From Clostridiaceae bacterium (GTDB taxonomy: Bacteria > Bacillota > Clostridia > Lachnospirales > Lachnospiraceae), in contig CAJSZV010000006.1 of the NCBI GenBank assembly GCA_910574345.1, positions 8,340 through 72,339 of the forward strand: a DNA stretch of 64,000 bases. Reading direction: 5' to 3'. Of this stretch, positions 44,927-64,000 are shown piece after piece. The translations under genes and the position numbers were made by a program. The stretch's first letter is position 1. Each line of letters opens with the position of its first letter. Below the pieces are notes generated by a model. That model saw only the letters and a program-made list of their open reading frames with translations. It was not told where the DNA came from and did no database searches.

Positions 44927-45439
44927 ATGAAGGCGGTGTTCCATCAATTTGCCCGGAACATATATGACTTTGACGATGGGCATGGCGGCCGTGAAATCAT
45001 TTATCATGAGTTGGACGAAAATGGTGACATTGCTCATGCAATAGAAATGTGGAACAGTTCTGATGGACGGTATTTTTTAATAGATCATGCACAAGGTGAT
45101 TCACAGGTGGAAATCAGTGAAGAGGAGTGGTGTGAAAGAGTTGATTCGATTATGGTAATGCGAACGGATTTGATTCTCTGGTCTGAATTTCCGAAAAGCC
45201 AGACGGAGGATCTGACATCAGAAATGCTGACATTTCTTGGGGAAACACGGAATGACGGCTGGCGGTGCGAAGGAGCCTGCGTCAATACTGACGGCATTAC
45301 CTGTGAAAGTTTTTTAGTCCGAATCACCTCCCAGGATCGTTCGTTTTTTCAGGAAACCGCGTTGTCCACAGAAAGCCGTACCATGCCAACAGGAGAGGCT
45401 CATTGGAAGGATGTGAACCGGATGTGCTGGTACATTTAG
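44927..45439 (+). CDS. Unrecognised protein, possible immunity-type gene
   Basis: 170 aa, soluble, acidic: NIYDFDDGHGGREIIYHELDE near 11, SEEEWCERVDSIMVM near 67, DGWRCEGACVNTDG near 110. There is no ribosome site before ATG 44927 and the terminator lies just upstream, so the real N-terminus may be missing. Its place at the head of the array suggests an immunity or cargo role, which is inference only. Confidence 0.5.
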   Translation: MKAVFHQFARNIYDFDDGHGGREIIYHELDENGDIAHAIEMWNSSDGRYFLIDHAQGDSQVEISEEEWCERVDSIMVMRTDLILWSEFPKSQTEDLTSEMLTFLGETRNDGWRCEGACVNTDGITCESFLVRITSQDRSFFQETALSTESRTMPTGEAHWKDVNRMCWYI

Positions 45440-45509
45440 GCGGCGGACGTGGGGGAACATAAGGGTATGCAGGTTCACTGTACATTTTTCCGTATGGGAC
45501 CCTGCCTCT

Positions 45510-46460
45510 ATGGACGAACCTCTGCAAACCATGACAGCAGGGGCAGATTTTCGCCCAAATTGCTATACGATAGATGCGAACTTCGATGGCTACGGGGATT
45601 TTACCTGTACCTATATCCAAGGAAATCAGGTATATTATGACCACCTTTGGATTTGGAATGAAGGACACAGCCGGTTTGAGGGTGTTCCGGAATATGACGA
45701 GATATCCGTTCCTGATTTGGATGAAGAAACAAAAACAATTTACGGATTTACCCCCAGCAGCGGCGGAGGTACAGGACTGCATACTTTTCATCAGTGGGAC
45801 AGTGGCAATCTTCTCTGTATGCGGCAGATTGAAATTTATCATGTGGGCAATTGGGGATATCAGGTATCAGCAGTGATGCCTGACGAAGAACCAGAGGATG
45901 AGGCGTTACAATACTATTATCGGAATTATTATCAACCAGTTTTGGTTTTGACAGATGCGGAAGGCGGAAAGTATTGTTTCTGCTATGGTTTTGATGGATA
46001 TACCTCGGTAGTGTCCTATACATCTATAATCGAACGGACATCTGGCGAGTATGAGGAAGTATTAAAAACAGTTAGATTAGAACTGGCCAAGCGTAATCGA
46101 AACCAGGCTCCATTTGAGGAAAACCTTAACGAAGTTGGGGTAAGCGAATATTATGATATATTAGTTGAACTTAATGCTAAGACTATTTCAATAGATGGGG
46201 GCAAGACGATTTGGGATAAAAGCGGTTTCTGGTGTACGAACTATTGTAGCAATAACTTTGTTGACTGTATGCGTTTTGGCATTGGCGAAGTTGATACGGA
46301 GGGAAACAGTCAGGCTGCAGATCGTCATATTAAACAAGAATATAGCGCAGAGCAGCTTTTGGCATTTTATCAGCAAGGGCTTGATTTGCAGAATCGTTTG
46401 ATAGAACTATATAAGAGGAGGCACGAGATTTCTCATTCGAGTACAGAAACTGGAAGCTGA
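45510..46460 (+). CDS. XAC2610-like protein, 5' end uncertain
   Basis: 316 aa from ATG 45510. NCYTIDANFDGYGDFTCTYIQ then YYDHLWIWNEGHSRFEGVPE and EISVPDLDEETKTIYGFTPS and GNLLCMRQIEI follow the VCBS-like XAC2610 family, including the calcium-loop type DANFDGYGD. In-frame coding signal continues upstream (VHFSVWDPAS) to about 45430 without a normal start, so the N-terminal secretion signal seen in relatives is missing here. The C-terminal 130 residues are unrelated and unrecognised. Confidence 0.6.
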   Translation: MDEPLQTMTAGADFRPNCYTIDANFDGYGDFTCTYIQGNQVYYDHLWIWNEGHSRFEGVPEYDEISVPDLDEETKTIYGFTPSSGGGTGLHTFHQWDSGNLLCMRQIEIYHVGNWGYQVSAVMPDEEPEDEALQYYYRNYYQPVLVLTDAEGGKYCFCYGFDGYTSVVSYTSIIERTSGEYEEVLKTVRLELAKRNRNQAPFEENLNEVGVSEYYDILVELNAKTISIDGGKTIWDKSGFWCTNYCSNNFVDCMRFGIGEVDTEGNSQAADRHIKQEYSAEQLLAFYQQGLDLQNRLIELYKRRHEISHSSTETGS

Positions 46461-46474
46461 GATGGAGGTATTTT

Positions 46475-46774
46475 ATGAAAAGATATATTGCAATACTTCT
46501 TCTAGTAATGATTGCTTTAGGGCTGTCAGGGTGTGGGGAGGACGTTATTCTTTCCAATAGCACGGTAGATATGACGGGAGGCATGGTCAATGTTTCCGGC
46601 GATTTGGGACAGATATCAGGAGACAGTATAATCAGAAGAATAAAAATAGATGATATAAATGATTTGAAAAATGTTCTCTATTTTGAGCTTACAACAAAAA
46701 ATAAGAGTGGTGAAGAAAATGTGTATCAGTTACAAATGTCTCTGACAAAAATAACGAAAAATGCTGGCGATTAA
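46475..46774 (+). CDS. Small putative lipoprotein
   Basis: 99 aa. The signal peptide ends in LGLSGC (lipobox Cys20), so it is probably a surface lipoprotein. The remainder is a small beta-rich domain (STVDMTGGMVNVSGDLGQ). GGAGG precedes the ATG. No family recognised; small lipoproteins of this kind occur as immunity proteins, but this is context only. Confidence 0.7.
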   Translation: MKRYIAILLLVMIALGLSGCGEDVILSNSTVDMTGGMVNVSGDLGQISGDSIIRRIKIDDINDLKNVLYFELTTKNKSGEENVYQLQMSLTKITKNAGD

Positions 46775-46815
46775 ATCCAGACATTTTCCTGTTGAAATAA
46801 GTGGAGGTTTTAAGT

Positions 46816-46977
46816 ATGCGGACAATTATTTCTGTTGTGATAATTATAATTGCTGCTGTTATTGGCTTTTTTATGGGATCAGGAATGAATCGGGCTATGG
46901 GTGGCGCAACGCTATTTGCGGTGATTGCGGGTTTTGCGTGTACGATTCAAGCGATTGATGGCAAGAAAAAGCCGTAA
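46816..46977 (+). CDS. Two-segment membrane miniprotein, 53 aa
   Basis: A short gene with GGAGG nine bases before ATG 46816. It reads MRTIISVVIIIIAAVIGFFM then GSGMNRAMGGATLFAVIAGF and ends ACTIQAIDGKKKP-stop. Two hydrophobic helices (about 3-20 and 29-44) with a Gly-rich hinge and a basic tail fit a small inner-membrane protein. No family recognised. It follows the lipoprotein gene by 41 nt and may be co-expressed. Confidence 0.65.
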   Translation: MRTIISVVIIIIAAVIGFFMGSGMNRAMGGATLFAVIAGFACTIQAIDGKKKP

Positions 46978-47096
46978 TATACAGTTTGCCGAAAAAACAA
47001 TCAAAACTTGCCGAAAATGCTTTTTAGAGCCAAAAGCACAGACGAGGCGGTGCGGGCTATGGAGGACAGTGTAGATTTCGGAAAGGTGATTATGAT

Positions 47097-47519
47097 ATGG
47101 ATTTCGGAAAATGTTTATTTAATTCCTTACAAATTGGAGTACACGGAAAGTATAAAGACAGGCCCAGATTTCCAGATGGAGAATTTACGCCTGAATTATA
47201 CAATTGCATCAAAAATGCTTTAGATACTGAAACCTTTACACATTTATACGGATACTATAATGCTGACGCAGTAGGCATCACTGTGGAATATGAAAATAGA
47301 TTATCTTACATTGTTATTCATAATGATTTGACTGGTTTTTCATACACATACATCAATCTAAATAATAAAGAAGATAAAACACAAGTAGACATTGGCGGAA
47401 GTACAATTTCTAAAAAATATGTTTACGATAATAAGACAACTATTCTAAATATCATTGTAATATTTCTGACAACAGGAGAACCATGTAGTCAATATGAATG
47501 GCTTGAATTAAAAGAGTAA
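47097..47519 (+). CDS. Putative immunity protein, Imm1-like C-terminal end
   Basis: 140 aa, acidic, soluble. The end TILNIIVIFLTTGEPCSQYEWLE resembles the Imm1-type ending (short helix, TG, then W near the end), shared with the genes at 47551 and 49665. ATG 47097 follows GGAAAGG. Upstream (46978-47096) only gene debris is seen. The toxin it would neutralise is not in the window. Confidence 0.6.
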   Translation: MDFGKCLFNSLQIGVHGKYKDRPRFPDGEFTPELYNCIKNALDTETFTHLYGYYNADAVGITVEYENRLSYIVIHNDLTGFSYTYINLNNKEDKTQVDIGGSTISKKYVYDNKTTILNIIVIFLTTGEPCSQYEWLELKE

Positions 47520-47550
47520 TAAAAAAGATATAAAAATTGGAGAACAGGTT

Positions 47551-48039
47551 ATGGAACAAAAATGTCATGATCTCACATTAACTTTTTTGAACAATGGAGA
47601 GTCCGTGTGTAAGGAAATCGAATTTAATCCAGATGCGTTACATGAGATTAAAAGTAAGATAGATGCTGAGGATTTGCTTACATTCGCTGCTGTCTATGGC
47701 GATGACGAATGGGCAATGGATGTATCCTGCGAAGGCAAAGATTCTTATATCGTGATGATAGAAATAGCAACAGGAATCACATATACATTTCTTAATCCGC
47801 AGTATTCAGACTTGTTTGAGCATTACAATTCAATCCATAATATTTTTGTATGTTCAAATATGGATGAATTTGAGCAGGACGAAAAAAACAGAGAAGCATT
47901 AACGCTATCTGAAATAAATGGAAATGATTGTCCATTACTTCATATCTGTGACAACAAACATGATTTATTTGAGATCATAATGAGTTTTATAAACACTGGC
48001 TCCATGTATTCAGGAGTTAATTGGTTAAGGAGCGAATAA
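47551..48039 (+). CDS. Putative immunity protein, Imm1-like C-terminal end
   Basis: 162 aa. It shares with its left neighbour the layout LYGYYNADAVGITVEY / FAAVYGDDEWAMDVSCEG, the middle SYIVMIEIATGITYTFLN (compare LSYIVIHNDLTGFSYTYIN) and the end FEIIMSFINTGSMYSGVNWL. The two are therefore diverged tandem duplicates. The end resembles Imm1. GGAGAACAGGTT precedes the ATG. Confidence 0.6.
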   Translation: MEQKCHDLTLTFLNNGESVCKEIEFNPDALHEIKSKIDAEDLLTFAAVYGDDEWAMDVSCEGKDSYIVMIEIATGITYTFLNPQYSDLFEHYNSIHNIFVCSNMDEFEQDEKNREALTLSEINGNDCPLLHICDNKHDLFEIIMSFINTGSMYSGVNWLRSE

Positions 48040-48119
48040 ATTATCTCTTACCAATAGCCATAAAACGGTTGGATGCCGCAAAAAAACAGTTTAATAGAGA
48101 GAGGAAATGGAGGCACACG

Positions 48120-48986
48120 ATGAAACGCTGTATCATTTGCAAAAAAGAAATTATCGAATTTGGCGAAAAACACTTTACTGGTTTTCAGTCTATCTTTCCC
48201 CCGAAAGAATTTGACAAAGCCTGCTACTTCATCCTGGGAGATGGGAGCAGCGGCCCGTATTACCCATTTGCACAGAGAAGTGAGACAGGCAGTTTCCGGC
48301 ATCTGCGCATTGAGCGTGGATTCTGGAATGAACAGATTCATCTGCGGCTCAACAGTGTCTATGTTAGTTATCTCAAATACGATTGGAGTGCAGCCATGTG
48401 TGCTTACGGGGTGTCGAACTATTCCGGTTATGGCAGGCTTTCCAGTATCCCCGAAAAATATACGGTCTGTTCCCCATGGTTTGATACGGAGAATGACAAG
48501 GATAGTCTGCAAAAGGGTCTTGTTGAATTAGGGGCATGGTATGTCGAACATTTGCCGGAGATAAACCTCTCCTATGAAAAACAGCAGACGTGGCTGGACA
48601 AGGACTACCGTGATGCCAAAATAACCAGGGCTTATTTGGATGAACATTTATCCGAATTGACAGAGCCGGAAATTTTTGAACTGTATCGGACAGTTGATCG
48701 TCTTGCAGGTGAGTATGAGAAGTCGGATATGAAAAACCGAAAGAATTCCCTGGGGTATAGTGCTTCACTTTCAGGTTTCAATGATTTTTGCTATGGCAAG
48801 TTTCCACCTAAGATCAATCATTGGGTAGACGAATTAAGTGAGATGATGCTGTCAAAGAAGGTTGTAAAAGGCATAGATATAGATTATGCCCGATCCTTTG
48901 CCATAAAAACTCTGCTGTACCTTTTCCATGACAGCCAGGAAGCAAATTATCCTGCTATACTGAAACATAAAGAGATATGGAAATAA
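48120..48986 (+). CDS. Unrecognised protein with N-terminal CxxC
   Basis: 288 aa. GGAGG seven bases upstream fixes ATG 48120; the open frame to 48021 overlaps the previous gene. It begins MKRCIICKKEIIEFGEKHF, a single CxxC that may bind metal with distant partners. A middle domain (YFILGDGSSGPYYPF, HLRLNSVYVSYLKYDW) and a helical C-terminal half follow. No family recognised. Confidence 0.6.
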   Translation: MKRCIICKKEIIEFGEKHFTGFQSIFPPKEFDKACYFILGDGSSGPYYPFAQRSETGSFRHLRIERGFWNEQIHLRLNSVYVSYLKYDWSAAMCAYGVSNYSGYGRLSSIPEKYTVCSPWFDTENDKDSLQKGLVELGAWYVEHLPEINLSYEKQQTWLDKDYRDAKITRAYLDEHLSELTEPEIFELYRTVDRLAGEYEKSDMKNRKNSLGYSASLSGFNDFCYGKFPPKINHWVDELSEMMLSKKVVKGIDIDYARSFAIKTLLYLFHDSQEANYPAILKHKEIWK

Positions 48987-49058
48987 AGATCAACGGAAAA
49001 ATGAATTACAAAAAAGCAACGAATGATATCAGAAAATTATTTTGTAGGAGTGAAAACT

Positions 49059-49610
49059 ATGAATATCCTGGATTTAGCTGACCTGCTCTTATCTCCTGAT
49101 GAAAAGAAGGAGCTGCAAACTTCAAAAGAGCTGTTAGAGCAATCAAATTATTCTGCGTTTTATGAAAGCAATCAGAATATTATCAAAAGCATTTTATTTC
49201 TTGAAACACTTGATGAGTTTCTGGACTTTTCAAAAGAAAACAGCCTTGATAAAGAATGTTATTGCGCTGCTTTTCTCTGCGCTTACGGTTACGGTATCCA
49301 GATCGGCGGCTATGAGGATGACTTGACACATACTTTAACAGAGTTTTTCCATACACAGGGAATGGAATATCCGGAAATTTCAGAGATTGTCTGTAAAGAA
49401 AAGATATATACGGATTGCAGCGATTATGACAATTTCAAAAAATCTATGACTGCAATAAACCAGGAATTAGATACACATGGGATAAGGTTAGTCGTTTTGG
49501 AAGATTTTGTTTACTGTGATTGTGAGTATACTGTTTTGAAGCTGGACAAAGCACTTGCTGATAAGATGCTTTCCTCATGGAGCAACGAAAATTTTGAAAT
49601 TTATTTATGA
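49059..49610 (+). CDS. DUF6630-like protein, possible immunity gene
   Basis: 183 aa from ATG 49059, which follows AGGAG. The C-terminal half (ICKEKIYTDCSDYDNFKKSM... then AINQELDTHGIRLVVLEDFVYCDCEYTVLKLDKAL) resembles the DUF6630 pattern of an acidic loop followed by a long helix and GxRLV strand. I hold this match loosely. All-cytoplasmic, acidic. Confidence 0.55.
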   Translation: MNILDLADLLLSPDEKKELQTSKELLEQSNYSAFYESNQNIIKSILFLETLDEFLDFSKENSLDKECYCAAFLCAYGYGIQIGGYEDDLTHTLTEFFHTQGMEYPEISEIVCKEKIYTDCSDYDNFKKSMTAINQELDTHGIRLVVLEDFVYCDCEYTVLKLDKALADKMLSSWSNENFEIYL

Positions 49611-49664
49611 AGAAGCAGTTACCTTTTGGAAAAAATAAAGTGAACCAATAAAGGGGGCAATCTT

Positions 49665-50165
49665 ATGGAACCTAAAATAATCAAAACACTATGTGGTATG
49701 GAAGTTAAAATCATACCTAAGCAGGAGAATATCCCTGATTTTGATGCCAAAGCAATCCAGATAAAACATATTGACTATTATGATCCGCCATTTTCTTCTT
49801 ATGAAGCTGATGAAATTATAGAAGAAGTAATTTCCAAAATTTTGGAAGAAATACCGCAGAGGCTTAATATATATTTGTACTTAGACCCCTATGGGGAAGC
49901 CACGATGTTTGAAGTAAACTGTGATGGGGAATGGCTGGCAATCAGCTTTAGCTCGCATGGCGGAACCAAAGAGGAAAAGAACTATTATTCCTATAATCCG
50001 GAGTATGCCGGAGTAGAAGAATTTGCCCATGTGCAAAGCGGCGGCCAGTCACCGATTGAGAAATACCTTGCGCTTACCAATATGGAAGCTGGCGTAAAGG
50101 CGGTTGAGTATTTTATACGGACAGGAAAACTTTATCCAGGCATTGACTGGGCTGAACAGCTCTAA
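49665..50165 (+). CDS. Putative immunity protein, Imm1-type
   Basis: 166 aa. N-terminal helical part with DYYDPPFSSYEADEIIEEVI, a central strand pair (LYLDPYGEATMFEVNCDGEWLAISF) and the end AVEYFIRTGKLYPGIDWAEQL. The ending EYFxxTGKLxPxIxW is the clearest Imm1 signature in the array. Imm1 proteins neutralise nuclease-type polymorphic toxins. GGGGGCAATCTT precedes the ATG. Confidence 0.65.
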   Translation: MEPKIIKTLCGMEVKIIPKQENIPDFDAKAIQIKHIDYYDPPFSSYEADEIIEEVISKILEEIPQRLNIYLYLDPYGEATMFEVNCDGEWLAISFSSHGGTKEEKNYYSYNPEYAGVEEFAHVQSGGQSPIEKYLALTNMEAGVKAVEYFIRTGKLYPGIDWAEQL

Positions 50166-50203
50166 TGCAATATATAAAATTTAAAGAACCTCCGGAGGAC
50201 AGG

Positions 50204-50755
50204 ATGATGAGAAAACCCACGGATGATATTGCGAACTGGCGATTACAGCAGGAGAATACATCAAAACCATTCCCATATGTTTTCCCGCAGATGCCGCCAC
50301 GTTTCCGGCGATGCTGTGCCTTTGCGAAAGCAGTATTTCTGATACAATGGGGATGCTTTGCCGCTTTTGGTGTTTGCAGTTTGGTGCTGTTCATTCCCGT
50401 GGTTATTTGGGGCAAGGACATGGGAATGAGTGCCATGATAGAAAACAAACCGTTTTTGGCATTTTTCATTGTGGTGGCTGCCATATCACTTCCGATTTTT
50501 TTTGCGGCTGTTCCGTTTGGATTTACCCCAAAACTTTTTTGGCGGTGTCCTTGCTGTGGGCATCCATTTCCATATTATGTTCCGAAAAGAGGGGATAACC
50601 TGAAAGAAAAGGAGTGTTTGCGGAATATAGAGTGGCGGCATATCAAATATGCGAAACTAAAATTTTGTCCGCTGATCATTCCGTCAGTCTGCCCGGAGTG
50701 CAAATGTAAGTTTTTTGAAATGACGGATGATTTACAAAATACAAGGAAAAATTGA
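50204..50755 (+). CDS. Membrane protein with zinc-ribbon tail
   Basis: 183 aa. Two membrane segments (about 38-63 and 76-98: FAAFGVCSLVLFIPVVIW and FLAFFIVVAAISLPIFFAAV) are followed by a metal-binding part with RCPCCGHPFPYY and VCPECKCKFF. GGAGG (50194-50198) sets ATG 50204 or 50207; the frame to 50165 overlaps the previous stop. No family recognised. Confidence 0.6.
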   Translation: MMRKPTDDIANWRLQQENTSKPFPYVFPQMPPRFRRCCAFAKAVFLIQWGCFAAFGVCSLVLFIPVVIWGKDMGMSAMIENKPFLAFFIVVAAISLPIFFAAVPFGFTPKLFWRCPCCGHPFPYYVPKRGDNLKEKECLRNIEWRHIKYAKLKFCPLIIPSVCPECKCKFFEMTDDLQNTRKN

Positions 50756-50793
50756 TCAGGAGGAAAAATTGGAGATACAGGAGGTTCTCTTTT

Positions 50794-51088
50794 ATGATAT
50801 ATGCAGAAAAAGGAAGAGAACAGGAATGTTTTATTGATTTTGTGGAAAAGGCTTTAGGAATATTGGATAAAGAGAAGTACCGTGATTTTTTAGCTGTGTT
50901 TGATAATAGTAGAATATTGACGGAACAAGAATTGATCTCTGCACTGCATGGAAGTGTGGGGAGAACCAGACAGCTGCCTGTCGGGAATGTGGGGCGACAT
51001 TTGGAAAACCAATAACACATATTACCTCATTGTTTATTATGACAGCAATGGTGTTGTTGAACATATTATGGTTATGAATCAAGATTAA
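50794..51088 (+). pseudogene. Frameshifted small gene (immunity-like)
   Basis: The first frame reads MIYAEKGREQECFIDFVEKA then LGILDKEKYRDFLAVFDNSR and ILTEQELISALH, after GGAGG upstream. From about 50948 the coding signal changes frame: EVWGEPDSCLSGMWGDIWKT followed by NNTYYLIVYYDSNGVVEHIM and a stop at 51086-51088. The first frame alone would end at 51015 with a meaningless Arg-rich tail. One base lost or gained near 50945-50955 explains it. Family not recognised. Confidence 0.65.
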
Positions 51089-51140
51089 CAAATCCTATTT
51101 TTAGAACTGGAAAAATCGTGACTGGAGGCGGTAAATAAAC

Positions 51141-51263
51141 ATGGGTAATATTTTTGGTTTTGAAGAAACAGAAAAGATGGGTCTCAGAAAAGGTGACGTT
51201 TTTTATTTTAACGATTGGATTGATGAAAAAATCATTTCCATATTGGAGGAGATAATAGAGTAG
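51141..51263 (+). pseudogene. Short reading frame ended by TAG, in frame with the next one
   Basis: GGAGG (51124-51128) and ATG 51141 start MGNIFGFEETEKMGLRKGDV then FYFNDWIDEKIISILEEIIE and TAG (51261-51263). The frame continues open for another 201 codons, with protein-like sequence from FLSLTQAQFTKKYNGENSAY. This can be either an interrupted gene or a small gene followed by a truncated one. Confidence 0.5.
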
Positions 51264-51866
51264 TTTCTTTCCCTGACGCAGGCGCAATTTACAAAGAAAT
51301 ACAATGGAGAAAACAGTGCTTATGTCAATCGGAGAAATATTCGTGGCGGATGGAAAAAGATTTTTCATCGGGAATTTGGCAACAAGAGTTTTGACAGCTC
51401 AAACATTTTGATATTAGACAATTGTACTTCACAAAATTTGCAGACAGTTTACGCCTGCGTGAAGCCGAGTAATTATAAGGCTCCGTCCATAGATTATTTT
51501 GTGTACGGTTATCTCTATTTTCAGTGCCCGCTTGATATAGAATGGAGAGAACTTTGCTTAAGTACACGTTTTGGTGTTCCATGCCCGAATTTTATACAAA
51601 TCCTATGGCCGGAATTAACGCAAAAAATAGAATCCGAAATCCCCAATGAGTTACATGGAAAATTAGTAAATGCCAATCTGTTTCTTGACATACTTGATCG
51701 TAAATCCGGGAAAATGCCTGAGCCGACATTGGAGCAGATACAAACCAGGTATCAAAAACTGTATTGGTTGCTGAAACCAATTCTTGTGTTACCTGAACGA
51801 CCTATGTTTATGAAAAAAGGGGATTGGGAGAAGCGTCTAAGGCGGTTTGAAGAGAAACAATCATAA
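51264..51866 (+). pseudogene. Unrecognised protein, start missing
   Basis: A 200-codon frame without a normal start: the first usual start codon is a TTG at 51408, but coding signal (KYNGENSAYVNRRNIRGGWK then KIFHREFGNKSFDSSN) begins at the TAG before it. The main body reads YFVYGYLYFQCPLDIEWREL near 60-80 and ends in KKGDWEKRLRRFEEKQS. If the gene is alive, translation would have to start at TTG 51408 and lose 48 residues. Confidence 0.5.
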
Positions 51867-52118: not shown

Positions 52119-52466
52119 ATGACAGCAGAAGAAATTTTTTGTGATTTGTTCGATAAATATGGTGAGGATTTTAACTGGTATATGGTGCCTTTATCACAAT
52201 CAAATGGCATATTTGTTGAAGAATTAAAAAAAGAGATTGGAGAAAGACATTTTTTATATCATAAAAAAGTCTGGGCAGTAGCAAAATGTGAATCTAATGA
52301 TGATGTTTTATATGTTACTGATGGAGAACAGGGTGCAGATACTTACTATATTTTTCATCTGACTTATTCAAAGCAGAATTTAGAGGGGTTCCCTAAGTAT
52401 GAAAAATTTGCAGACATATATGCAGTAAAAGAATTTATTGAACAGGCATTTATAAAAACTATATAA
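52119..52466 (+). CDS. Small unrecognised acidic protein, possible immunity gene
   Basis: 115 aa, single alpha/beta domain: EEIFCDLFDKYGEDFNWYMV, KKVWAVAKCESNDDVLYVTD and a C-terminal helix KYEKFADIYAVKEFIEQAF. GGAGGG precedes the ATG. The size, acidity and single-domain make-up resemble polymorphic-toxin immunity proteins, but no named family fits. Confidence 0.6.
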   Translation: MTAEEIFCDLFDKYGEDFNWYMVPLSQSNGIFVEELKKEIGERHFLYHKKVWAVAKCESNDDVLYVTDGEQGADTYYIFHLTYSKQNLEGFPKYEKFADIYAVKEFIEQAFIKTI

Positions 52467-52538
52467 AGGAACATTCAATTTGTGGAGGTTTCGTAACTGT
52501 TAAACGGAATGTACCAACATAATGTGAAAGAAAAGAGG

Positions 52539-53396: not shown

Positions 53397-53425
53397 GATA
53401 TTTTTATTTGGGAGGAATTTTCAGG

Positions 53426-56486: not shown

Positions 56487-56497
56487 AGGGAACTGTA

Positions 56498-58030
56498 ATG
56501 ATGGAAGAGAAAAAAGTACAGCTTGACAAGGTACGCAGGGCATTCCGGAATCCAAACCTGCGAGGCTGGATTCCCAGATACCTCCTGACAATACTGGAAC
56601 AGAGTGAAGACATCGAAGATACCCTGTCAAAAATGGAGCAGGCCATGCCAAAATACTGTGAGCCCCGCAAATTTGCCACGGAAGAGCTGCAGAGCCTGGA
56701 TGAGGGGAGTGAGAAACAGAATGACTGGAGGAGCCTGTTGGTTGAACTAAGCCCTGCCGTAAGAACCTTTTGGGAAGAGCGATATGACAATTACATCAAT
56801 CCCAATGGCAGATACCAAACACTTTTAGGATTTGCGGATATGCGGGAAAGGTATCTGGGAGTTTCCCATGAAAGCAGCGTACAGCTTTTGTATGGGATGG
56901 GATGGAAGCCTGTGGATACCATGTGCGCTTACCTGCTGAGCATGACTACAAACCGTATGTACAGCCTGTCTCCCGATGCTGTCAGAGAAGCTGTCAGACT
57001 GGACCGGGAGGCGGCCATCGGCCTTCTGGATAAAAAAGTGCTGGGAGAGGCCATCGTTCATCATCACTTCTCCTATCAGACAGAATGGCAGAAGCTGTGG
57101 ATGGAATTTTTGTACCTGTTCTGTGGATTTGAGGATCAGACATTTCTGCATATGGAGCACAAGACGAAAAAGCTGAAACAACAGTGCCAGGCCATCTGTG
57201 AGAAGCTTGCCAATCCGAATTATGAGCAAACGGAACTGGAAAAAGCATTGCGAGCCTGTGCCTTGCTGCCATCAAAGGAGGAAATGGCAGCCATTCCGGA
57301 TAAGAAATTTGAAAAAAAGCAGAAAGCAGCCCTGCTAAATGCGTTTGTCTGCAATTATCAATGGAGTTATCCCGACTGGATGGAAATAAAGGATCATCCG
57401 GCCTGCCGTACAATGATACAAAACCTGCTTTGGGGATGCTATGAGAATGGAGTGCTTCAAAATGCCTTTGCTCTGGAAGAAGGCGGACAGATAACGGATG
57501 GGAATGGGGAGGCGTTTTCCGGCAGGATTTTCCCCGAACAGGGGCGGATTGGCCTTGTACATCCGGAGGAACTGACAGAAGTGGAGCGGGATATCTGGAA
57601 AAAATATGCAGGGAAGAAAAAATGGAAACACCCCCTTCCCCAACTTAAGATACCTGTGTGCCGGGGGCAGTATGACCTGGCGGCATTTACCGGCATTCAG
57701 GTAACGCAGCTTTTCATGATCACGGCGGCGGGCAAGTGGGGCCTGTACCAGGGGAGCGGCAGGAACCAGTATATGTCGTATCATATGGTAGACCTTCTCC
57801 ACGGGTATGGCGCTCAGCTTACCTTTGACGGTATCTGGAGAGGACCGGAATATGGACCGGAGATCATCACGATAGACAAAGTGATTTTTTATCGGTTTCG
57901 GCATTTCCTGCTCTGGGATCATGTACCCGAAAGTCTGGTCTGTGCCCCGGAGGAACTGCCGGCACGCTTTGTGTCTACTGCAATGGCAGCTTTCCAGGCT
58001 ATCATCGGGAAAGGGAAAAAGAAAGAGTGA
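56498..58030 (+). CDS. DUF4132-domain protein
   Basis: 510 aa. The C-terminal third (KKWKHPLPQLKIPVCRGQYDLAAFTGIQV near 370-400, then GPEYGPEIITIDKVIFYRF) follows the DUF4132 pattern, in which the PxxQL segment is conserved. The N-terminal two thirds are helical repeats. DUF4132 proteins are often linked to WGR/MolR-type genes and contact-dependent systems, but the function is unknown. Paired ATGs at 56498 and 56501 follow AGAGGG. Confidence 0.6.
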   Translation: MMEEKKVQLDKVRRAFRNPNLRGWIPRYLLTILEQSEDIEDTLSKMEQAMPKYCEPRKFATEELQSLDEGSEKQNDWRSLLVELSPAVRTFWEERYDNYINPNGRYQTLLGFADMRERYLGVSHESSVQLLYGMGWKPVDTMCAYLLSMTTNRMYSLSPDAVREAVRLDREAAIGLLDKKVLGEAIVHHHFSYQTEWQKLWMEFLYLFCGFEDQTFLHMEHKTKKLKQQCQAICEKLANPNYEQTELEKALRACALLPSKEEMAAIPDKKFEKKQKAALLNAFVCNYQWSYPDWMEIKDHPACRTMIQNLLWGCYENGVLQNAFALEEGGQITDGNGEAFSGRIFPEQGRIGLVHPEELTEVERDIWKKYAGKKKWKHPLPQLKIPVCRGQYDLAAFTGIQVTQLFMITAAGKWGLYQGSGRNQYMSYHMVDLLHGYGAQLTFDGIWRGPEYGPEIITIDKVIFYRFRHFLLWDHVPESLVCAPEELPARFVSTAMAAFQAIIGKGKKKE

Positions 58031-58107
58031 AAATAGTTTTCGGTTTTCGGCAGGATTGGGGTGTATGAGTAACCCGTAAAGTTTGACCGGCTTACAGGAG
58101 GAGGAAA

Positions 58108-58911
58108 ATGGGAAAAACAGGAACAACGGGAAAGACAGGACAGCCCCCATGGGCAAAGCGTATTTTAAAATTGCTGGAGCAGGCAAAGGTGAAAGATCCG
58201 GACCTTGTGCGGTTTGGTGCCTATAGCCACAAGTATAAGCTGTCACCGCCTGCCAGTGAGGAGACGATACAAAAATTTGAGGAGCAGGAGGGAATACGGC
58301 TGCCGGAAGAATACCGGGATTTCCTGCTTTTTGTGGGAAACGGCGGCGCAGGCCCTTATTATGGGCTTTATGGGGTGAAGACACAGGAAAAGGAACTTCA
58401 CGATTCCCATGGTTCCCGCCTCTACCGCGTTCAGGAAGAGCCGGTGATCTATCCGAAGATGAGTGATGAGGATTGGAACAGGGTGGCCGATCCGGAGGGC
58501 AGACGAAAAGGAGAGGAGGTACATCCCTATGTGGGAGTCCTGCCCATCGGGAGCCAGGGCTGTACCCTTATGACAGGGATCATGCTTGCAGGACCTTATC
58601 GGGGGCAGGTGGTCTATTATGACGAGGATTTCTGCGGTCAGCCGTTTTTTGTGCGGGAACAGGGATTCCTTAAGTGGTATGAGAGATGGCTCCGGGAAGT
58701 GATCGCGGGTTATAATGACGAAGAGATTGGATTTGGATTAAATATAGATGGAACCCCCAGTCAGCTGATGGATCTGTACGAACAGACCGAAGATCCGGAG
58801 GAAAAAATAGAGATCATCGACAGTTTCTATAAATTTGAGACTTTGCCAGGAAAACAGAAAACGTATTTCAAAAAACCTGTGCCCAGGAATCCAACATGGA
58901 AGTGCGGATGA
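58108..58911 (+). CDS. SMI1/KNR4 (SUKH-1) family protein, probable immunity protein
   Basis: 267 aa. SMI1 domain (about 45-200): SPPASEETIQKFEEQEGIRL then PEEYRDFLLFVGNGGAGPYY, later HPYVGVLPIGSQGCTLMTGI and VRQQ-like FVREQGFLKWYERWL. SMI1/SUKH proteins are an established class of immunity proteins for polymorphic toxins. Its paralogue at 59641 runs on in one frame, while this one ends RNPTWKCG-stop and the coding continues in a second frame from 58896. GGAGGAGG precedes the ATG. Confidence 0.85.
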   Translation: MGKTGTTGKTGQPPWAKRILKLLEQAKVKDPDLVRFGAYSHKYKLSPPASEETIQKFEEQEGIRLPEEYRDFLLFVGNGGAGPYYGLYGVKTQEKELHDSHGSRLYRVQEEPVIYPKMSDEDWNRVADPEGRRKGEEVHPYVGVLPIGSQGCTLMTGIMLAGPYRGQVVYYDEDFCGQPFFVREQGFLKWYERWLREVIAGYNDEEIGFGLNIDGTPSQLMDLYEQTEDPEEKIEIIDSFYKFETLPGKQKTYFKKPVPRNPTWKCG

Positions 58912-59603
58912 AGCTGATCAAGATGCTGGTCCGTTTCCATGTGCCGGGCATGACGAAGGAGCTTGAAAAGCTGTGGGAATACGGGGCCTATGCGGAGGCG
59001 GTCTCCATCATCACCTATGAAGGCACCTGGGAGGTGAAGGAAGCCTGGTATGAGAGGGTATTTCAGGTACTGCCCAGGCTCCGGGGGGAGGGCTTCCGGG
59101 ATGCCTGCCATACCATCAGAGCCGTGAAGGATTATCCCAATGTCCATGCAGGAAGGCTGAGAGAAGCCTTGAACCGGAACGATCTGGACAGGAATGACAG
59201 GATTTCGCTGTTTCACTGTATTCAGGAGCTGAAGGGAAAAGAAGAAGTGCTGGATTATTTCCTGGATTATCTGTCCACAGAGGAAAATCCCGCTTTGCTG
59301 ATTTATGCCGTCTGGTGCACGGAGGGTGTAGAGAACCGGCAGCTGCAGGAGCTCTATGTACGTCTGATGGACAGGTACAGAACTCATGAAAATACGAAAT
59401 TTGACTATAAAGGCAGCCAGATGGTCTTAAGAGGCGGCGCCTGTCTGGGAGCCAGCAGACCGGAGGGACAGCTCACAAGCAACCTGATGCGGCAGTTCGA
59501 TTATTTTGGCCTGGATTATCCAGGTGGCTTTAAGCTTCTGATGGACGAGGGCAGATGGAAGGAATGGAAACAGCAGAACGGATTTGGGACAGTGGATAGA
59601 TAG
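58896..59603 (+). CDS. Continuation of the SMI1 protein in a second frame (HEAT-like part)
   Basis: 235 aa from ATG 58896, overlapping the previous gene by 16 nt. MEVRMKLIKMLVRFHVPGMT then KELEKLWEYGAYAEAVSIIT and helical repeats through FDYLSTEE align with the region after SMI1 in the paralogue at 59641. Either one base was lost near 58895 and the two frames were one gene, or the pair is coupled by overlapping ATG. The C-terminal 60 residues have no counterpart in the paralogue. Confidence 0.6.
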   Translation: MEVRMKLIKMLVRFHVPGMTKELEKLWEYGAYAEAVSIITYEGTWEVKEAWYERVFQVLPRLRGEGFRDACHTIRAVKDYPNVHAGRLREALNRNDLDRNDRISLFHCIQELKGKEEVLDYFLDYLSTEENPALLIYAVWCTEGVENRQLQELYVRLMDRYRTHENTKFDYKGSQMVLRGGACLGASRPEGQLTSNLMRQFDYFGLDYPGGFKLLMDEGRWKEWKQQNGFGTVDR

Positions 59604-59640
59604 AAGAAAGTAAGCAATATATCAAAGGAAGTAAAAGGCT

Positions 59641-61512
59641 ATGTCAAACACATTTCCGTTAGAAGAATTGCGCTCATTGTTAGAAAAGGCAAGGACCGCA
59701 GATGCGGATCTGAAACAATTTGGCGCAGAAAGTCATAAATATCAATGGAATCCGCCAGCGTCTTTGAAAGAGATAGAGGAATTTGAGCAGGAAACAGGGA
59801 TTGTTCTTCCAGATGGCTATCGTAACTTTCTGCTGCAGGCGGGGAACGGCGGAGCCGGGCCTTTTTATGGCCTGTTTCCTATTTCAGCGAGCAAAGGCTG
59901 GCCCATAGAGGCGGATAAGCTTCCCTGGCTGGATCCGGACAGGAGCGTAGAGGAACTGGAGGATGTGCCGGACTGGAAGCGGGGCTGTATCCCCATCGGT
60001 TCCCAGGGGGATACCTATATCACCTGCCTGATGGTGACAGGGCCGGACCGGGGCCGTGTCGTTTATATAGAATATGAGCGCTCCTGGATATTTTTCCCCA
60101 GGGAACCGGACTTTTTATCCTGGTATACCCGCTGGCTGCGGGAGGCGGCAGCCGGTTACGATATGGGGTGGTTTGGTATTTTCCTTGATGGTGATGAAGA
60201 AACACTGCAAAAGCACTATGTTCAGGCGGATACAGAAGGGGAAAGATTATTGGCCATTGACAGTATGGAAAAGTTCCCAGACTTATCGGATGCCTCCCAG
60301 GATTTTATATGTAGTATTCTGGATGAATGGGTCATGAAGGAGGATGTGGGCAGCCTGCCACGGCTGGCTTACCGTGTAGACCCCGAATTATATGGACAGT
60401 TTTTGGATAAACGATGGGAAGTTGGGCTGATTGACCGGGTGGTATATGAATTGTACCATACGCCTGCAGACAGAAAGGATCTGGCAAAACGTTGGAAAGA
60501 GCGCATCCTGGATAAGTTGCCGGAGCTTTCTCCGAAAACGTATTGTATTGCCATACCGCTTTTGAGGATGGGCGGCGGGGTGAATCTGGAACAGGTGGCA
60601 TTTCTCCTTGACAGGGCTGAAGGCAGGGAGAAAAGGGAGCTGCTCCGTGATTTAGGGCATTTCCCGGATGCAAAAGAACACCTGGAGATATGGTTGGGCT
60701 ATCTGCAGGAACGGGAGGATCTGGAACTGCTCCATTATGCTTTGCTGTCCGTTCCCCATGTCAACGATCCCCGGCTGCGGGAAGCACTGTGTAAGGTACA
60801 GGCCGCATTCCCGTTTGCCCTGGAAATGATTCATGTTGATGATTATAAAGATAAAGAAGCATTGGAGCGTTCCTTACGTCGGAATAAAGAACGCACGGTT
60901 TATAAAGCGGCAGACGCTGTCCTGACAGAGTTGTTTTATGAGGGCATTAACCCGGAGGATATCCGTCTGCCCCGTCCGTACCGCTTGAAAATGCCAGGGA
61001 ATGCAATGAGCGATTTAGGGATGTACCGAACCCTGCCGACAGATGGGATTTTGATACACCCATTGATTGCCCTTGCCATTCGGCAGGGATCGGGTGGAAG
61101 ACTGCCATCCACTGCCTGGGATTGGGGGCGGAAGCTGAAACAGGTCAAGGAGCTCCAGCTTGTCCTGTCCGAAAAAACAGTCCAGAGCTGGGAGGATGAA
61201 GCCCGTTGTGCCTATCTCCGTGCGCCGGACGAGCATTTTCCGCCAGAGCCTTATTATTATGATCTCCGGGGCTGGGCTGTCATTGGCGGGGTGGAAAATT
61301 TACGGGAATTGAGGATTTCTGAAATATGTGTGGAAGATTTCTCTTTCCTGGCACAGTGTAAGAATCTGCGGACGCTGTCCCTTTATAATACAAATTTTAC
61401 AGATTGCCGGTTATTGAAGGAGCTGCCAAAGCTAAGATATGTTGATCTCCGTTATTGTCGTTTGATACATAAAGAGGTTTTGAAGAAACTTCATGCGGAG
61501 TGTGAGCTATAA
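59641..61512 (+). CDS. SMI1/KNR4 protein with helical repeats and C-terminal LRR
   Basis: 623 aa in three parts. The SMI1 domain (about 25-180) has NPPASLKEIEEFEQETGIVL then PDGYRNFLLQAGNGGAGPFY and CIPIGSQGDTYITCLMVTGP. HEAT-like helical repeats follow (about 200-420), then leucine-rich repeats (about 520-623: GVENLRELRISEICVEDFSF then LAQCKNLRTLSLYNTNFTDC). It is a complete paralogue of the broken gene pair at 58108/58896, and its LRR end is shared with the gene at 53426. Likely an immunity protein, inferred from the SUKH domain. The ATG lies 37 nt after the previous stop. Confidence 0.85.
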   Translation: MSNTFPLEELRSLLEKARTADADLKQFGAESHKYQWNPPASLKEIEEFEQETGIVLPDGYRNFLLQAGNGGAGPFYGLFPISASKGWPIEADKLPWLDPDRSVEELEDVPDWKRGCIPIGSQGDTYITCLMVTGPDRGRVVYIEYERSWIFFPREPDFLSWYTRWLREAAAGYDMGWFGIFLDGDEETLQKHYVQADTEGERLLAIDSMEKFPDLSDASQDFICSILDEWVMKEDVGSLPRLAYRVDPELYGQFLDKRWEVGLIDRVVYELYHTPADRKDLAKRWKERILDKLPELSPKTYCIAIPLLRMGGGVNLEQVAFLLDRAEGREKRELLRDLGHFPDAKEHLEIWLGYLQEREDLELLHYALLSVPHVNDPRLREALCKVQAAFPFALEMIHVDDYKDKEALERSLRRNKERTVYKAADAVLTELFYEGINPEDIRLPRPYRLKMPGNAMSDLGMYRTLPTDGILIHPLIALAIRQGSGGRLPSTAWDWGRKLKQVKELQLVLSEKTVQSWEDEARCAYLRAPDEHFPPEPYYYDLRGWAVIGGVENLRELRISEICVEDFSFLAQCKNLRTLSLYNTNFTDCRLLKELPKLRYVDLRYCRLIHKEVLKKLHAECEL

Positions 61513-61649
61513 AGATGTAAATCATTGACAATAGTTTACAAAAGGCGGCGATGGCGGATGCTCGCTTTGCGGCGGCGACGGAGCGATCTATGTCCTGCCC
61601 TGCTATACTGCTTTTTATTGCCAGCCAACGAATATAGGGAGGAAGAAAA

Positions 61650-61934
61650 ATGGAATCGTACATCTTCGTAATAGCCATGATAGCGCTTTTTGCTTTCGGA
61701 ATTACTAAATTTGTTTATTATAAGATAAATAAGAATTCGGTTAAAAGCAAGACAAGCAAACAAAATGATCTGGTTATGAGAAGTGGTGTCGTTGGTTTAT
61801 GTCTTGGTGTGGGCGTTGGCGTAGCATTAAAAGATTTGTTCTCTGAAACCGCTATACTATTAGTTGGAATAATTGGGGCTACAATAGGTGTAATAATAGA
61901 AATTGTTATCAGACATCAAAAAGAATCTACCTGA
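61650..61934 (+). CDS. Small membrane protein
   Basis: 94 aa with GGGAGGAAG before the ATG. Two or three hydrophobic helices: FVIAMIALFAFGITKFVYY (about 5-24), VGLCLGVGVGVALK (about 48-62) and ILLVGIIGATIGVIIEIVI (about 69-87), with a Lys-rich loop (KNSVKSKTSKQN). No family recognised. The 137-nt gap before it holds only a short Gly/Cys-rich open stretch with no start. Confidence 0.6.
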   Translation: MESYIFVIAMIALFAFGITKFVYYKINKNSVKSKTSKQNDLVMRSGVVGLCLGVGVGVALKDLFSETAILLVGIIGATIGVIIEIVIRHQKEST

Positions 61935-62055
61935 TGCTCCTGAAGAAAGTAACATCGTTTTAGCAATTTGGGATTACATCCTGATTCCGCCTATGACAAA
62001 AGCGGAACTGGAAGATCTGGCCGGGAAACTGCGTGGGAAGGGAAGGTCTGTATGA
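61926..62055 (+). pseudogene. Orphan C-terminal gene fragment
   Basis: In the frame ending with TGA 62053-62055 the DNA reads KNLPDAPEESNIVLAIWDYI then LIPPMTKAELEDLAGKLRGK and GRSV-stop, good protein-like sequence without a start codon of its own. The final ATG overlaps the next gene (ATGA). It looks like the 3' end of a gene whose 5' part was replaced by the small membrane protein gene. Confidence 0.5.
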
Positions 62056-62813
62056 GCGGAGCAGCAGGAGAAAAGCAGGAAGCAGAAAAAAGGATAAAGG
62101 AATATATACAGGCCAGCTCCATGGGCCTGAGCAAAAAGGAAGAGCAGGATTTTAAAGAGCTTGTAATCCGCAATGAAGAAACGGCAAAAAAGGTATTCCG
62201 GGGTTCAAAACATATAGGGAAGGCGTATATCCTGATCTATTTGAACTCCCAGGGAAAAGACGCTGACATTGCAAAAGAAGAGGCAGCAGCCTGGGCCTGC
62301 CAGATGGAGTTTATAAACAGTAATGTTTCAGAAGAACGGGCATTCCGTTCCTGGCTGTCGGGAGAAACTGATATCATGCCGGAAACAATGCCGGTCAACA
62401 AATATATCATGGGATTTCCGCACAGAAAAAATGTAGAACTCTGTTATTTATCAAAGGTATGCACATTTACGGAGAGGCTTGTAGCTTATGGAGTAAAAAA
62501 GGGATATGTGGATATTGTACGGGGGCCAGTGAGGGAGATGATGCGCGAACTTGACAGCTCCTATGCGTGTTCTTTTCTTGAGCATACAGTCTGGACGTAT
62601 CAATTATCAGAAGAAGATATCATGCAGATGTATTCCGCAATCTATGCGATATCCGGAAACGCCAAAGCAGAAAAGGAGTTTTACCGTAATTTTATCTGTG
62701 CGTGGCTGGAGCAGGATAAGGACCGGTATCTGGCAGCCATTGAAAAGATAAGCAAAGATATGCGGAAAAAGATATTTGCTGTGTTAAAAAGAGAGAATCT
62801 GTATACGACATAG
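62052..62813 (+). CDS. Unrecognised helical protein
   Basis: 253 aa from ATG 62052 (GGAAGG upstream; ATG overlaps the stop of a gene fragment). All-helical prediction: KQEAEKRIKEYIQASSMGLS, then HIGKAYILIYLNSQGKDADI and a C-terminal DKDRYLAAIEKISKDMRKKI. Cytoplasmic, no motifs for catalysis seen. No family recognised. It is the partner of either the small membrane protein before it or the one after it. Confidence 0.6.
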   Translation: MSGAAGEKQEAEKRIKEYIQASSMGLSKKEEQDFKELVIRNEETAKKVFRGSKHIGKAYILIYLNSQGKDADIAKEEAAAWACQMEFINSNVSEERAFRSWLSGETDIMPETMPVNKYIMGFPHRKNVELCYLSKVCTFTERLVAYGVKKGYVDIVRGPVREMMRELDSSYACSFLEHTVWTYQLSEEDIMQMYSAIYAISGNAKAEKEFYRNFICAWLEQDKDRYLAAIEKISKDMRKKIFAVLKRENLYTT

Positions 62814-62850
62814 ATGTTTTTCAAATATAAGAGGAGTGAAAAGAAACAGA

Positions 62851-63036
62851 ATGAAAAGAATTGTGTTGGGAGGCTTTGCTTTTGTGGGCGGAGCTGTTAT
62901 GTATTCGACTGGCACATTGGGATTTGCCCATGTGGAGGTACAGGCAAATTATATGAAAATACCGCAGTATCTCGGAGTGATTGCAATGATCACAGGTATT
63001 ATTTTGGGTATATGTGGTTTGATAAATGATAAGTAA
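62851..63036 (+). CDS. Small two-segment membrane protein
   Basis: 61 aa from ATG 62851: MKRIVLGGFAFVGGAVMYST followed by a loop and IPQYLGVIAMITGIILGICG. GAGGAG lies 14 nt upstream, which is far; GTG 62836 is an alternative. It may be an immunity-type membrane peptide, by context only. Confidence 0.5.
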   Translation: MKRIVLGGFAFVGGAVMYSTGTLGFAHVEVQANYMKIPQYLGVIAMITGIILGICGLINDK

Positions 63037-63127
63037 TACTCCACTTCCAGATCAGACAGAGGTTTTCGTTTTTACCTTTAGTATAGTATCTGTGTTTTGA
63101 AGTGGTATATATGAAAGAGAAAGACTT

Positions 63128-63760
63128 ATGAGATACGAAATTATTCAAACAAAATCCTATCCTGCAGCTGAATTTGAAATTCAAAATAAGGAAGGGAATA
63201 TTGGAAAAGCTGTTAAAATTTGTGAAAAGAAAGTATGGTCATTTGAAATAGAATTTAAACAAAAGAACTTTCAGATGGTGTTTGCAAATTCATCTTTGCC
63301 ATCCTTGAAAACGATGTTTATAGAGATGCTTACATTTTCTCAGCCTAAAAATGATCTACACAGGCTTTGCATAGACGGAAAGGAACAAGGAGAAATTTTC
63401 AGGCGCTGGGGCCATTATTGGCTGGAGTTAAACGGCTGTAAATATAGTACCTGTACAGTAGGATTTGGTTCTGAAGGAATGAAGTGTCTGGTCTTTGAAG
63501 GTTTTGTTGACAGAAAGGATAATCCAACTGGAAAACAGATTGCTTTGATTGAAACGCCGAATTCAGGACAACGTTTAGACCGTTATCAGGTGACAGCTCG
63601 GGGAGATATGGCGGGATTAGTGGCTTTGCTTTTTGGACTTTTTTGGGACAATAACGCATTCCACAAAAGTGATACATATTATGAAAAAAGCTATTTAGTA
63701 TCGTGGGGGAAAGAAAAAAATTTGTATGATCCCTCTTTTAAAGATTCAATCATTGATTAA
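63128..63760 (+). CDS. Tubby/LURP-one-like domain protein
   Basis: 210 aa. A beta-rich single domain resembling the tubby C-terminal-like fold: SYPAAEFEIQNKEGNIGKAV, VWSFEIEFKQKNFQMVF, then KQIALIETPNSGQRLDRYQV and MAGLVALLFGLFWD. I see this as a fold-level resemblance, not a firm match. No signal peptide. GAAAGAGAAAG precedes the ATG. Confidence 0.55.
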   Translation: MRYEIIQTKSYPAAEFEIQNKEGNIGKAVKICEKKVWSFEIEFKQKNFQMVFANSSLPSLKTMFIEMLTFSQPKNDLHRLCIDGKEQGEIFRRWGHYWLELNGCKYSTCTVGFGSEGMKCLVFEGFVDRKDNPTGKQIALIETPNSGQRLDRYQVTARGDMAGLVALLFGLFWDNNAFHKSDTYYEKSYLVSWGKEKNLYDPSFKDSIID

Positions 63761-63787
63761 ATAGTAGATAGAGAAGGAACTCTGAAA

Positions 63788-64000
63788 GTGGAAGATTGTT
63801 ATATGCCTGATTATTTCAATTCATCGCATAATAAAATTAGTCCTGAACTGCAGGGAAGTGTTTTACGGGGCATTTTAGGAAGTGTTACCGGGATAATCGT
63901 CTGTATTCTGGTAATGCTGTTATGCGCCCTGTTCCAGATGAGCAGTTTCAGTACCATGCTCCAGCTTTTTACGGGGCTGGTGATCGGGGGGTTCTACCGT
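63788..64000 (+). CDS. Membrane protein, cut by the window edge
   Basis: 71 residues are visible from GTG 63788 (AAGGA nine bases upstream; ATG 63803 is the alternative): MEDCYMPDYFNSSHNKISPE then LQGSVLRGILGSVTGIIVCI. Hydrophobic segments lie near 30-47 and 58-70. The rest lies outside the window. No family recognised. Confidence 0.55.
   Translation, partial: MEDCYMPDYFNSSHNKISPELQGSVLRGILGSVTGIIVCILVMLLCALFQMSSFSTMLQLFTGLVIGGFYR

Follow-up and report, generated by a model that had tools for sequence, protein, structure and literature searches.

A 31-kb co-oriented gene array in a gut Lachnospiraceae bacterium resembles horizontally exchanged polyimmunity loci

A window of 64,000 nucleotides from the 5.6-Mb draft genome (G000) of a gut bacterium of the Lachnospiraceae, corresponding to positions 8340 to 72339 of contig C6 (CAJSZV010000006.1), contains the beginning of a long array of immunity-like genes, which is the subject of this work. 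Coordinates without a prefix are window positions, those prefixed C6 or C20 refer to contigs of G000, and other G and L numbers denote the genomes and loci used for comparison. The array started at about 44,927, crossed the end of the window and continued to C6:84,335, reaching a total of about 31 kb. Thus, the first-pass annotation, which had described a 19-kb array of orphan immunity-like genes, was right about the existence of the array and fell short on its size.

The single orientation proposed for all the genes was borne out by the ORF (open reading frame) calls, which were made with a simple script rather than a trained gene finder. The plus strand held 39 of the 40 ORFs of at least 70 amino acids (aa) called between C6:53,200 and C6:84,400, that is, in the window stretch plus its continuation, whereas in the other parts of the contig's initial 126 kb the figure was 71 of 108 called ORFs. 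Gaps between the listed ORFs were short (20 of 24 below 100 bases; three of 252 to 392 bases). The description of the products as mostly short, single-domain proteins was in agreement with the median ORF length of 183 aa, but not with the region from 53.4 to 61.5 kb, where the ORFs were larger (235 to 623 aa), some products were multidomain and two genes were split by frameshifts. The base composition of the array was mixed. Promoter and terminator scans gave counts close to those of shuffled sequences, and for this reason no operon limits are claimed. A twin array of 17 kb was present on contig C20 of the same genome.

All the features of the window stretch lie on the plus strand. At its left edge, outside the array, the ORF at 44543 to 44803 fused remnants of a cysteine-rich KTR protein (PF14205, 26.6 bits; cut-off, 25.5) and a phage portal protein (PF04860, 25.5 bits, below the cut-off of 39.1), and is, judging from these matches, a scar of old mobile DNA. 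The array opened with an acidic protein of 170 aa (44927 to 45439), lacking relatives in the arrays compared, followed by an XAC2610-related protein of 316 aa (45510 to 46460), which aligned with locus L066 in five pieces of 31 to 83% identity, and by a remnant that looked lipoprotein-like by eye (46475 to 46774; 99 aa, versus 163 to 165 aa in its relatives). Three members of an Imm1-like family came next, with two other genes among them: a protein of 140 aa (47097 to 47519), assigned by family comparison; one of 162 aa (47551 to 48039), with a 79% identical relative in the G397 array near uvrB; a 321-aa protein with a weak zinc-finger match (48021 to 48986), whose relatives measure 289 to 290 aa and which was 100% identical over 288 aa to its counterpart in the G398 array; an acidic protein of 183 to 195 aa (49023 to 49610; 95% identity to the G398 array copy); and the third Imm1-like protein, of 166 aa (49665 to 50165; 96% in G398). 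They were followed by a protein of 183 to 196 aa, membrane-like and with cysteine pairs by eye (50165 to 50755), a short remnant ORF (50752 to 51015), a truncated gene (51408 to 51866; 152 aa, versus 296 aa in G398), an acidic protein of 115 aa (52119 to 52466; 97% in G398) and a protein of 281 to 295 aa, membrane-like by eye, with a TPR match below cut-off (52509 to 53396).

The larger genes began with a split one (53408 to 55151; ORFs 53408 to 54133 and 53919 to 55151). Next to it lay a 439-aa protein without a curated family (55167 to 56486), with a ratio of nonsynonymous to synonymous substitutions (dN/dS) of 0.12, which often adjoins the genes downstream of it, then a DUF4132 protein of 534 aa (56426 to 58030; PF13569, E value 1.4e-13), and then a second split gene encoding an SMI1/KNR4 domain plus a C-terminal part (58108 to 59603; ORFs 58108 to 58911 and 58896 to 59603). 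The multidomain protein at 59641 to 61512 (623 aa; 99% in G397) combined SMI1/KNR4 with C-terminal leucine-rich repeats (LRR). The stretch ended with a small protein, membrane-like by eye and probably disturbed (61650 to 61934), a protein of 253 to 281 aa (61968 to 62813; 98% in G397), a doubtful short ORF (62814 to 63029), a 210-aa protein with no relative in the arrays compared (63128 to 63760) and the start of a 431-aa protein (63788 to 64000; 76% identity in the twin array), with which the array runs past the window.

Both split genes had intact counterparts. A search with the 58108 protein gave 15 loci from 12 assemblies, and in 12 of these loci the SMI1 gene was a single ORF of 488 to 511 aa, the exceptions being L076 (398 aa), L080 (282 aa) and L073 (no such ORF called). 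For its part, the gene at 53408 was unsplit in a single genome (L067, G398), as an ORF of 577 aa made up of an LRR-like part (below cut-off), a 160-aa domain and a C-terminal part, whereas its relatives in other loci measured 190 to 424 aa. The 160-aa domain stood alone in another array (L059:1550-2059, 48% identity). Across the loci, LRR, SUKH and Imm1-like domains were fused in varied orders, as expected for polyimmunity proteins. The frameshifts and truncations may be real mutations or errors of the draft.

To the families of the products, Pfam contributed little: its cut-off was passed by three of the 23 window-array ORFs, namely, the DUF4132 protein (56426) and the two SMI1/KNR4 proteins (SUKH-1, PF09346; 49.1 bits for 58108 and 48.4 bits for 59641, with a cut-off of 25.4). 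The two SMI1/KNR4 genes of the first-pass annotation were thus confirmed, as was its XAC2610-like gene at 45510, which matched NCBIfam NF047539 (E value 1.1e-13, 51.5 bits; cut-off, 35). The latter was the only one of ten window proteins named in a first NCBIfam scan, and a second scan of ten (59641, two intact relatives and seven proteins of the continuation) named none. Three more genes matched the SMI1 model in the continuation, two of them above the cut-off. Regarding the three Imm1-like genes, their mutual kinship held, and no Pfam match was obtained for any of them at an E-value limit of 10, at which the program filters discard most weak matches. When six relatives were added, PF14430 (Imm1) was matched by two of the nine family members, neither from the window, with a best E value of 0.001; kinship with Imm1 is therefore plausible but remote. 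Immunity superfamilies over cut-off in the window were SUKH, twice, and the XAC2610-related family, once, with LRR contained in one SUKH protein and Imm1 reached via relatives only. Altogether, 19 of the 23 ORFs had no over-cut-off match in Pfam or NCBIfam (the latter run on 11 of them), in agreement, within the reach of these scans, with the five or more unrecognised families announced, which are candidate immunity families. No toxin, secretion or mobility family was detected among the 23 ORFs (Pfam, E value 0.05), a scan that unfamiliar toxin families would escape. The absence of such genes, also anticipated, thus applied to the interior of the array and not to its edges, occupied by the phage-portal/KTR remnant on the left and by a recombinase remnant and a uvrB fragment on the right.

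The families were patchily distributed. Among 397 genomes of the Lachnospiraceae, our own included in each count, 59641 found matches in 24 and a three-row Imm1-like profile in 10. A class-wide search with the Imm1-like profile gave matches in 3 of 381 genomes (our own, one already found and a new one, whose match covered 31 of 144 positions in surroundings that looked housekeeping-like by eye). In plasmids, the SMI1-LRR protein retrieved 32 records, all below 60% identity, and the best 15 of the 32 were matches to the SMI1 part. Such patchiness, together with the very recent transfers described below, weighs against the idea that the SUKH/LRR proteins have a role of the house (in the envelope, in signalling or as chaperone-like proteins), their co-orientation reflecting shared cargo transport only. 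This idea draws on copies of the 498-aa SMI1 gene that lie without other C6-array relatives nearby (L074, L075 and L079) and on an Imm1-like relative located between tpiA- and gpmI-like genes (L097; names given by eye), and we regard it as improbable.

The effect of selection was studied on 25 hand-chosen pairs of intact genes, two of which compared only relatives with each other, broken genes being left out. One pair was identical, and in all 24 computable pairs dN/dS was below 1 (0.08 to 0.54, the highest value being based on 6 changes); the intact gene pairs tested are under purifying selection. These values bear on the possibility that the array no longer functions as a unit and is, for the most part, a graveyard of mobile cargo. 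A graveyard would leave damaged recombinases, fragments of uvrB, a mixed base composition, truncated ORFs (several here) and genes split by frameshifts (two here); set against this are the dN/dS values, albeit from intact genes only, the longer copies of the genes in other genomes and the retention of a second array of 17 kb in the same genome, and we therefore consider the graveyard unlikely.

The comparison with other arrays revealed a gene-by-gene mosaic. Synonymous divergence between the C6 and C20 arrays jumped from gene to gene, being 1.01 for gene 74533, 0 for 75084, 0.07 for 75585 and 0.46 for 77346. With a relative defined by at least 40% identity over half of either protein, 31 of 39 array ORFs had relatives somewhere among five other arrays and 8 had none; the numbers of ORFs with relatives were 21 for G398, 15 for G399, 12 for C20, 10 for G397 (L066) and 7 for G397 at uvrB. 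Some pieces were highly similar, such as window positions 56,465 to 61,969 and L066 (99.1% over 5.5 kb) or 48,105 to 50,948 and G398 (95% over 2.8 kb), whereas UvrB, without its 5'-encoded part, was only 76 to 79% identical between G000 and G397, G398 or G399. This contrast indicates recent horizontal exchange. Short contigs of G022 (L096 and L059) carried SUKH+LRR, SUKH+Deam_C, BspA-LRR and Imm1-like genes, all in one orientation. Elsewhere, an array fragment was adjoined by an ABC transporter, a permease, a histidine kinase and a response regulator (L070:6227-11227), a set that by eye is like a bacteriocin-resistance module.

On its right side, the array was followed by a broken tyrosine recombinase (C6:84,593-85,780) and then by a 5' fragment of uvrB (C6:85906-86226). 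Further right lay a second recombinase remnant and a second uvrB 5' fragment (C6:89796-90080), and a whole uvrB (C6:121299-123359) had two recombinase ORFs (397 and 427 aa) in front of it. This tandem of fragments and recombinases looks like the result of repeated insertion of elements at uvrB. No left uvrB fragment was found for the window array, and it is from its right side that we infer it to have been cargo of such an element itself. A left copy of the attachment site, sought with the 3' end of the uvrB fragment, gave a single match at 42390 with 3 mismatches, which is at chance level and was rejected.

The uvrB surroundings were read in six genomes (G000, G114, G397, G398, G399 and G400), all except G114 picked for holding array genes, and three of them (G000, G397 and G399) had an array in the vicinity of uvrB or of a fragment of it. 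The G399 locus, which shares its length and, in mirror image, its gene map with G013:C18 and was counted once, contained all three parts, i.e., uvrB, a displaced uvrB 5' fragment and recombinases at one end, the latter damaged. Its order over about 25 kb was uvrB fragment, module with AbiEii, array, two tyrosine recombinases (both shortened, with a stop inside the match) and uvrB; the module comprised a shortened unnamed gene, a 182-aa gene, DUF5720, DUF6088 and AbiEii (families assigned through the G398 orthologues). Upstream of uvrB in G397, seven relatives of window ORFs were located, with about 3 kb between the nearest of them and uvrB; the site also held a recombinase remnant and a DUF5720 remnant. 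Neither a whole recombinase pair nor an array was found at uvrB in G400, and G114 had a whole pair and no array genes in the stretch read, where the contig ends within 5 kb.

UvrB of G000 and that of G399 were 99% identical in the 83-aa 5' part and 76% identical in the remainder, a pattern suggesting that the 5' end comes with the elements. In other pairs the contrast was milder, and the 5' part is conserved anyway. Between G398 and G400, similarity was lower in the 5' part (0.90) than in the remainder (0.95), again as though the two had different histories.

Other arrays lay in other settings. The twin array on C20 was flanked by an ORF with DUF3849, YodL and LPD16 domains on one side and by a MobA-type relaxase on the other. 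A large serine recombinase lay on the far side of the relaxase, at a distance of about 2 kb, and we tentatively read the carrier as resembling an integrative and conjugative element (ICE). The G398 array (L208 to L211; G398:C2:250160-293084), about 43 kb long and with 50 of its 53 called ORFs in the same orientation, was located between genes that by eye are metabolic, and none of the mobility genes tested was found in the 80 kb read around it. DUF3879- and FlxA-like genes come after this array; they were considered as secretion partners and dropped, there being no DUF3879 match in our own genome. DUF3879 was found at 14 places in 9 genomes, one of them the end of the G398 array. On another contig of G398 (C3), an operon resembling a cyclic-oligonucleotide-based antiphage signalling system (CBASS) was observed between two uvrB 5' fragments (L201:2825-4198 and neighbours), with a CD-NTase carrying an AGS_C sensor and proteins that are E1/E2- and JAB-like by eye.

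The cargo of the uvrB elements raises the question of whether the array, or its core of genes 55167, 56426, 58108 and 59641, is a module for intracellular defence, against phages or otherwise, rather than for toxin immunity, the uvrB elements being defence islands. Sister elements do carry AbiEii and a CBASS-like cyclase with AGS_C, and several loci have the core genes together. PADLOC, however, gave weak matches only, in two of ten proteins (PDC-M40A, a candidate profile, over the SMI1 region, with a best E value of 0.00089, and ThsB1, with 0.0034), the Pfam scan found no nuclease or nucleoside triphosphatase domain in the 23 window ORFs, and the combination of SUKH, LRR and Imm families is one that the literature gives for immunity arrays. 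A defence module thus seems an outside chance, of about the same order as the graveyard.

The reading that we favour, with somewhat more confidence than all its rivals together, is that of a heterogeneous polyimmunity locus, spread and reshuffled horizontally, that constitutes a stock of antidotes to the toxins of neighbours. It draws support from an anatomy that matches the polyimmunity loci of Zhang et al. 2012 (PMC3482391), and from the selection and the recent exchange, which fit. Moreover, neither LXG nor RHS proteins were matched in our own genome, so that with respect to these two classes the array genes are orphans. Given the family resemblance and the published polyimmunity biology, the array products would be immunity proteins, and the array probably protects against toxins of neighbours. 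Each protein would bind and block one incoming toxin of a neighbour, or a few; with a row of many antidotes, the bearer could then tolerate several attackers without owning toxins itself, and arrays would grow and change by recombination between copies.

Several observations weigh against this reading, and one of them concerns toxin genes. The first-pass annotation had proposed looking for orthologues beside toxins in other genomes. LXG matches were found in 34 of the 397 family genomes (20 over cut-off) and RHS matches in 127, and two classes of neighbourhoods were examined, 20 of LXG (349 kb, 13 genomes) and 20 of RHS (306 kb, 20 genomes), totalling 655 kb from 33 genomes, several of them cut by contig ends; RHS genes were taken by match, without assuming each to be a toxin. 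They were compared with 88 array models, 21 of them from ORFs starting in the window, plus the Imm1-like model (at least one model being a misplaced recombinase piece). Only one of the 88 models gave a strong match in the 40 neighbourhoods, and no window family did. That match, of the twin-array family C20:13675 at L176:11326 (E value 1.2e-53), which we take to be DUF4291, lay within a string of RHS tip and immunity-like cassettes. Three more matches were marginal (E values of 0.001 to 0.006), none from a window family, and when 164 array proteins were compared with the LXG set by tblastn, the matches were likewise only marginal (best E value, 1e-4). A control set of 121 kb, unmatched because it came from our own genome only, gave three matches, one to a recombinase piece and two to a known SMI1 gene. 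The L176 locus itself (G349:C49) displayed an RHS gene, then a series of displaced tip cassettes, of which two had similar small cysteine-rich genes, and then HEAT-like and DUF4291-like genes (recognised by eye or from recall). Inspection by eye revealed no toxin next to the Imm1-like relatives at eight other loci, whose surroundings were housekeeping genes, mobile DNA or other arrays.

The proposed carriers and the genes themselves add to these objections. The recombinases were damaged or remnants at all three array sites near uvrB, and the two uvrB sites of G398 with whole recombinases had no array genes in the stretches read, its array being elsewhere; the case for uvrB elements as array carriers is circumstantial. 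Several array genes are broken. In addition, genes 55167, 56426 and 58108 often travel together, also outside long arrays, and are in this more like a fixed unit than like independent antidotes. Orphan immunity genes, nevertheless, need not adjoin toxins, and the toxin-neighbour result thus does not refute the immunity reading. The original proposal of an orphan immunity array is therefore supported in part, by its polyimmunity anatomy, the genome without LXG or RHS matches, selection and exchange; the search beside toxins spoke largely against it.

As for the polyimmunity locus and its carriers, elements may have inserted into the 5' part of uvrB by means of paired tyrosine recombinases, restoring the gene with their own 5' end, and may have brought these arrays. 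A broader proposal can be put forward only tentatively: a family of Lachnospiraceae integrative elements would land in the 5' part of uvrB, swap in their own uvrB 5' end and carry AbiE, CBASS-like systems and large mosaic immunity arrays, the latter exchanged gene by gene with those on ICE-like elements. This would be the equivalent of rAID among Gram-positive gut bacteria, and it would comprise many immunity families not described so far. The damage to the recombinases at each of the three array sites makes the proposal slightly less likely. What is newest in the finding is the carrier that targets uvrB, and uvrB as a landing site of such elements was not found described in the literature searched, outside which most subscription journals fell; within the same limits, titles and abstract openings described no immunity array in Lachnospiraceae or Clostridia. 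If the polyimmunity reading is true, gut Lachnospiraceae share stocks of antidotes horizontally, as do the Bacteroidales, whose rAID arrays were reportedly first described by Ross et al. 2019. The array would then supply candidates for new immunity families that can be tried one by one against toxin domains, and the uvrB landing site offers a simple handle for finding more such elements.

Three known systems can be compared with the array. Polyimmunity loci are co-oriented, toxin-free and strain-variable, mix SUKH and LRR with other families and multidomain proteins, and are already known with adjacent recombinases in some cases and with Firmicutes among their bearers (PMC3482391). The window array shares the co-orientation, the lack of Pfam toxins inside, the multidomain proteins and the variable content, together with small gaps, and, less clearly, the mix of SUKH and LRR with other families; it differs in its candidate carriers, namely, uvrB elements with two tyrosine recombinases and, for one copy, the neighbourhood of a relaxase and a serine recombinase, and in its length (31 kb, and about 43 kb in G398) and its 19 of 23 window ORFs without an over-cut-off curated match.

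The rAID arrays of Bacteroidales are also co-oriented orphan immunity genes, SUKH included, with a tyrosine recombinase (PMC12247911), which is adjacent here as well, although damaged or a remnant (C6, G399 and G397). Genes of rAID are short (100 to 300 codons), whereas here, with a median of 183 aa, several reach 400 to 623 aa; the uvrB target and the Lachnospiraceae host also set our array apart, and in such a host toxins of type VI secretion systems would not be the expected threat. The conserved intergenic motifs that define rAID were absent: 93 intergenic stretches from four arrays, some of them homologous, shared little beyond words resembling ribosome-binding sites, the top word counts being 8, 3 and 3 for words of 8, 10 and 12 bases, versus mean shuffle maxima of 6.8, 3.2 and 2.1, respectively. 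The 11 direct-repeat families of the window stretch had two copies each.

Finally, orphan tdi genes in AID-like arrays are diverse immunity genes linked to mobile DNA, with reports of homologues from Firmicutes and, for Roseburia and Tyzzerella, of pairs linked to LXG (PMC10470768), and orphan immunity proteins are reported to protect in Bacteroidales (PMC10470768, PMC12247911). Carrying many array proteins may protect against several toxins. The likeness to the tdi arrays lies in diverse immunity-like genes linked to mobile DNA; a difference is that for tdi the cognate toxin is known.

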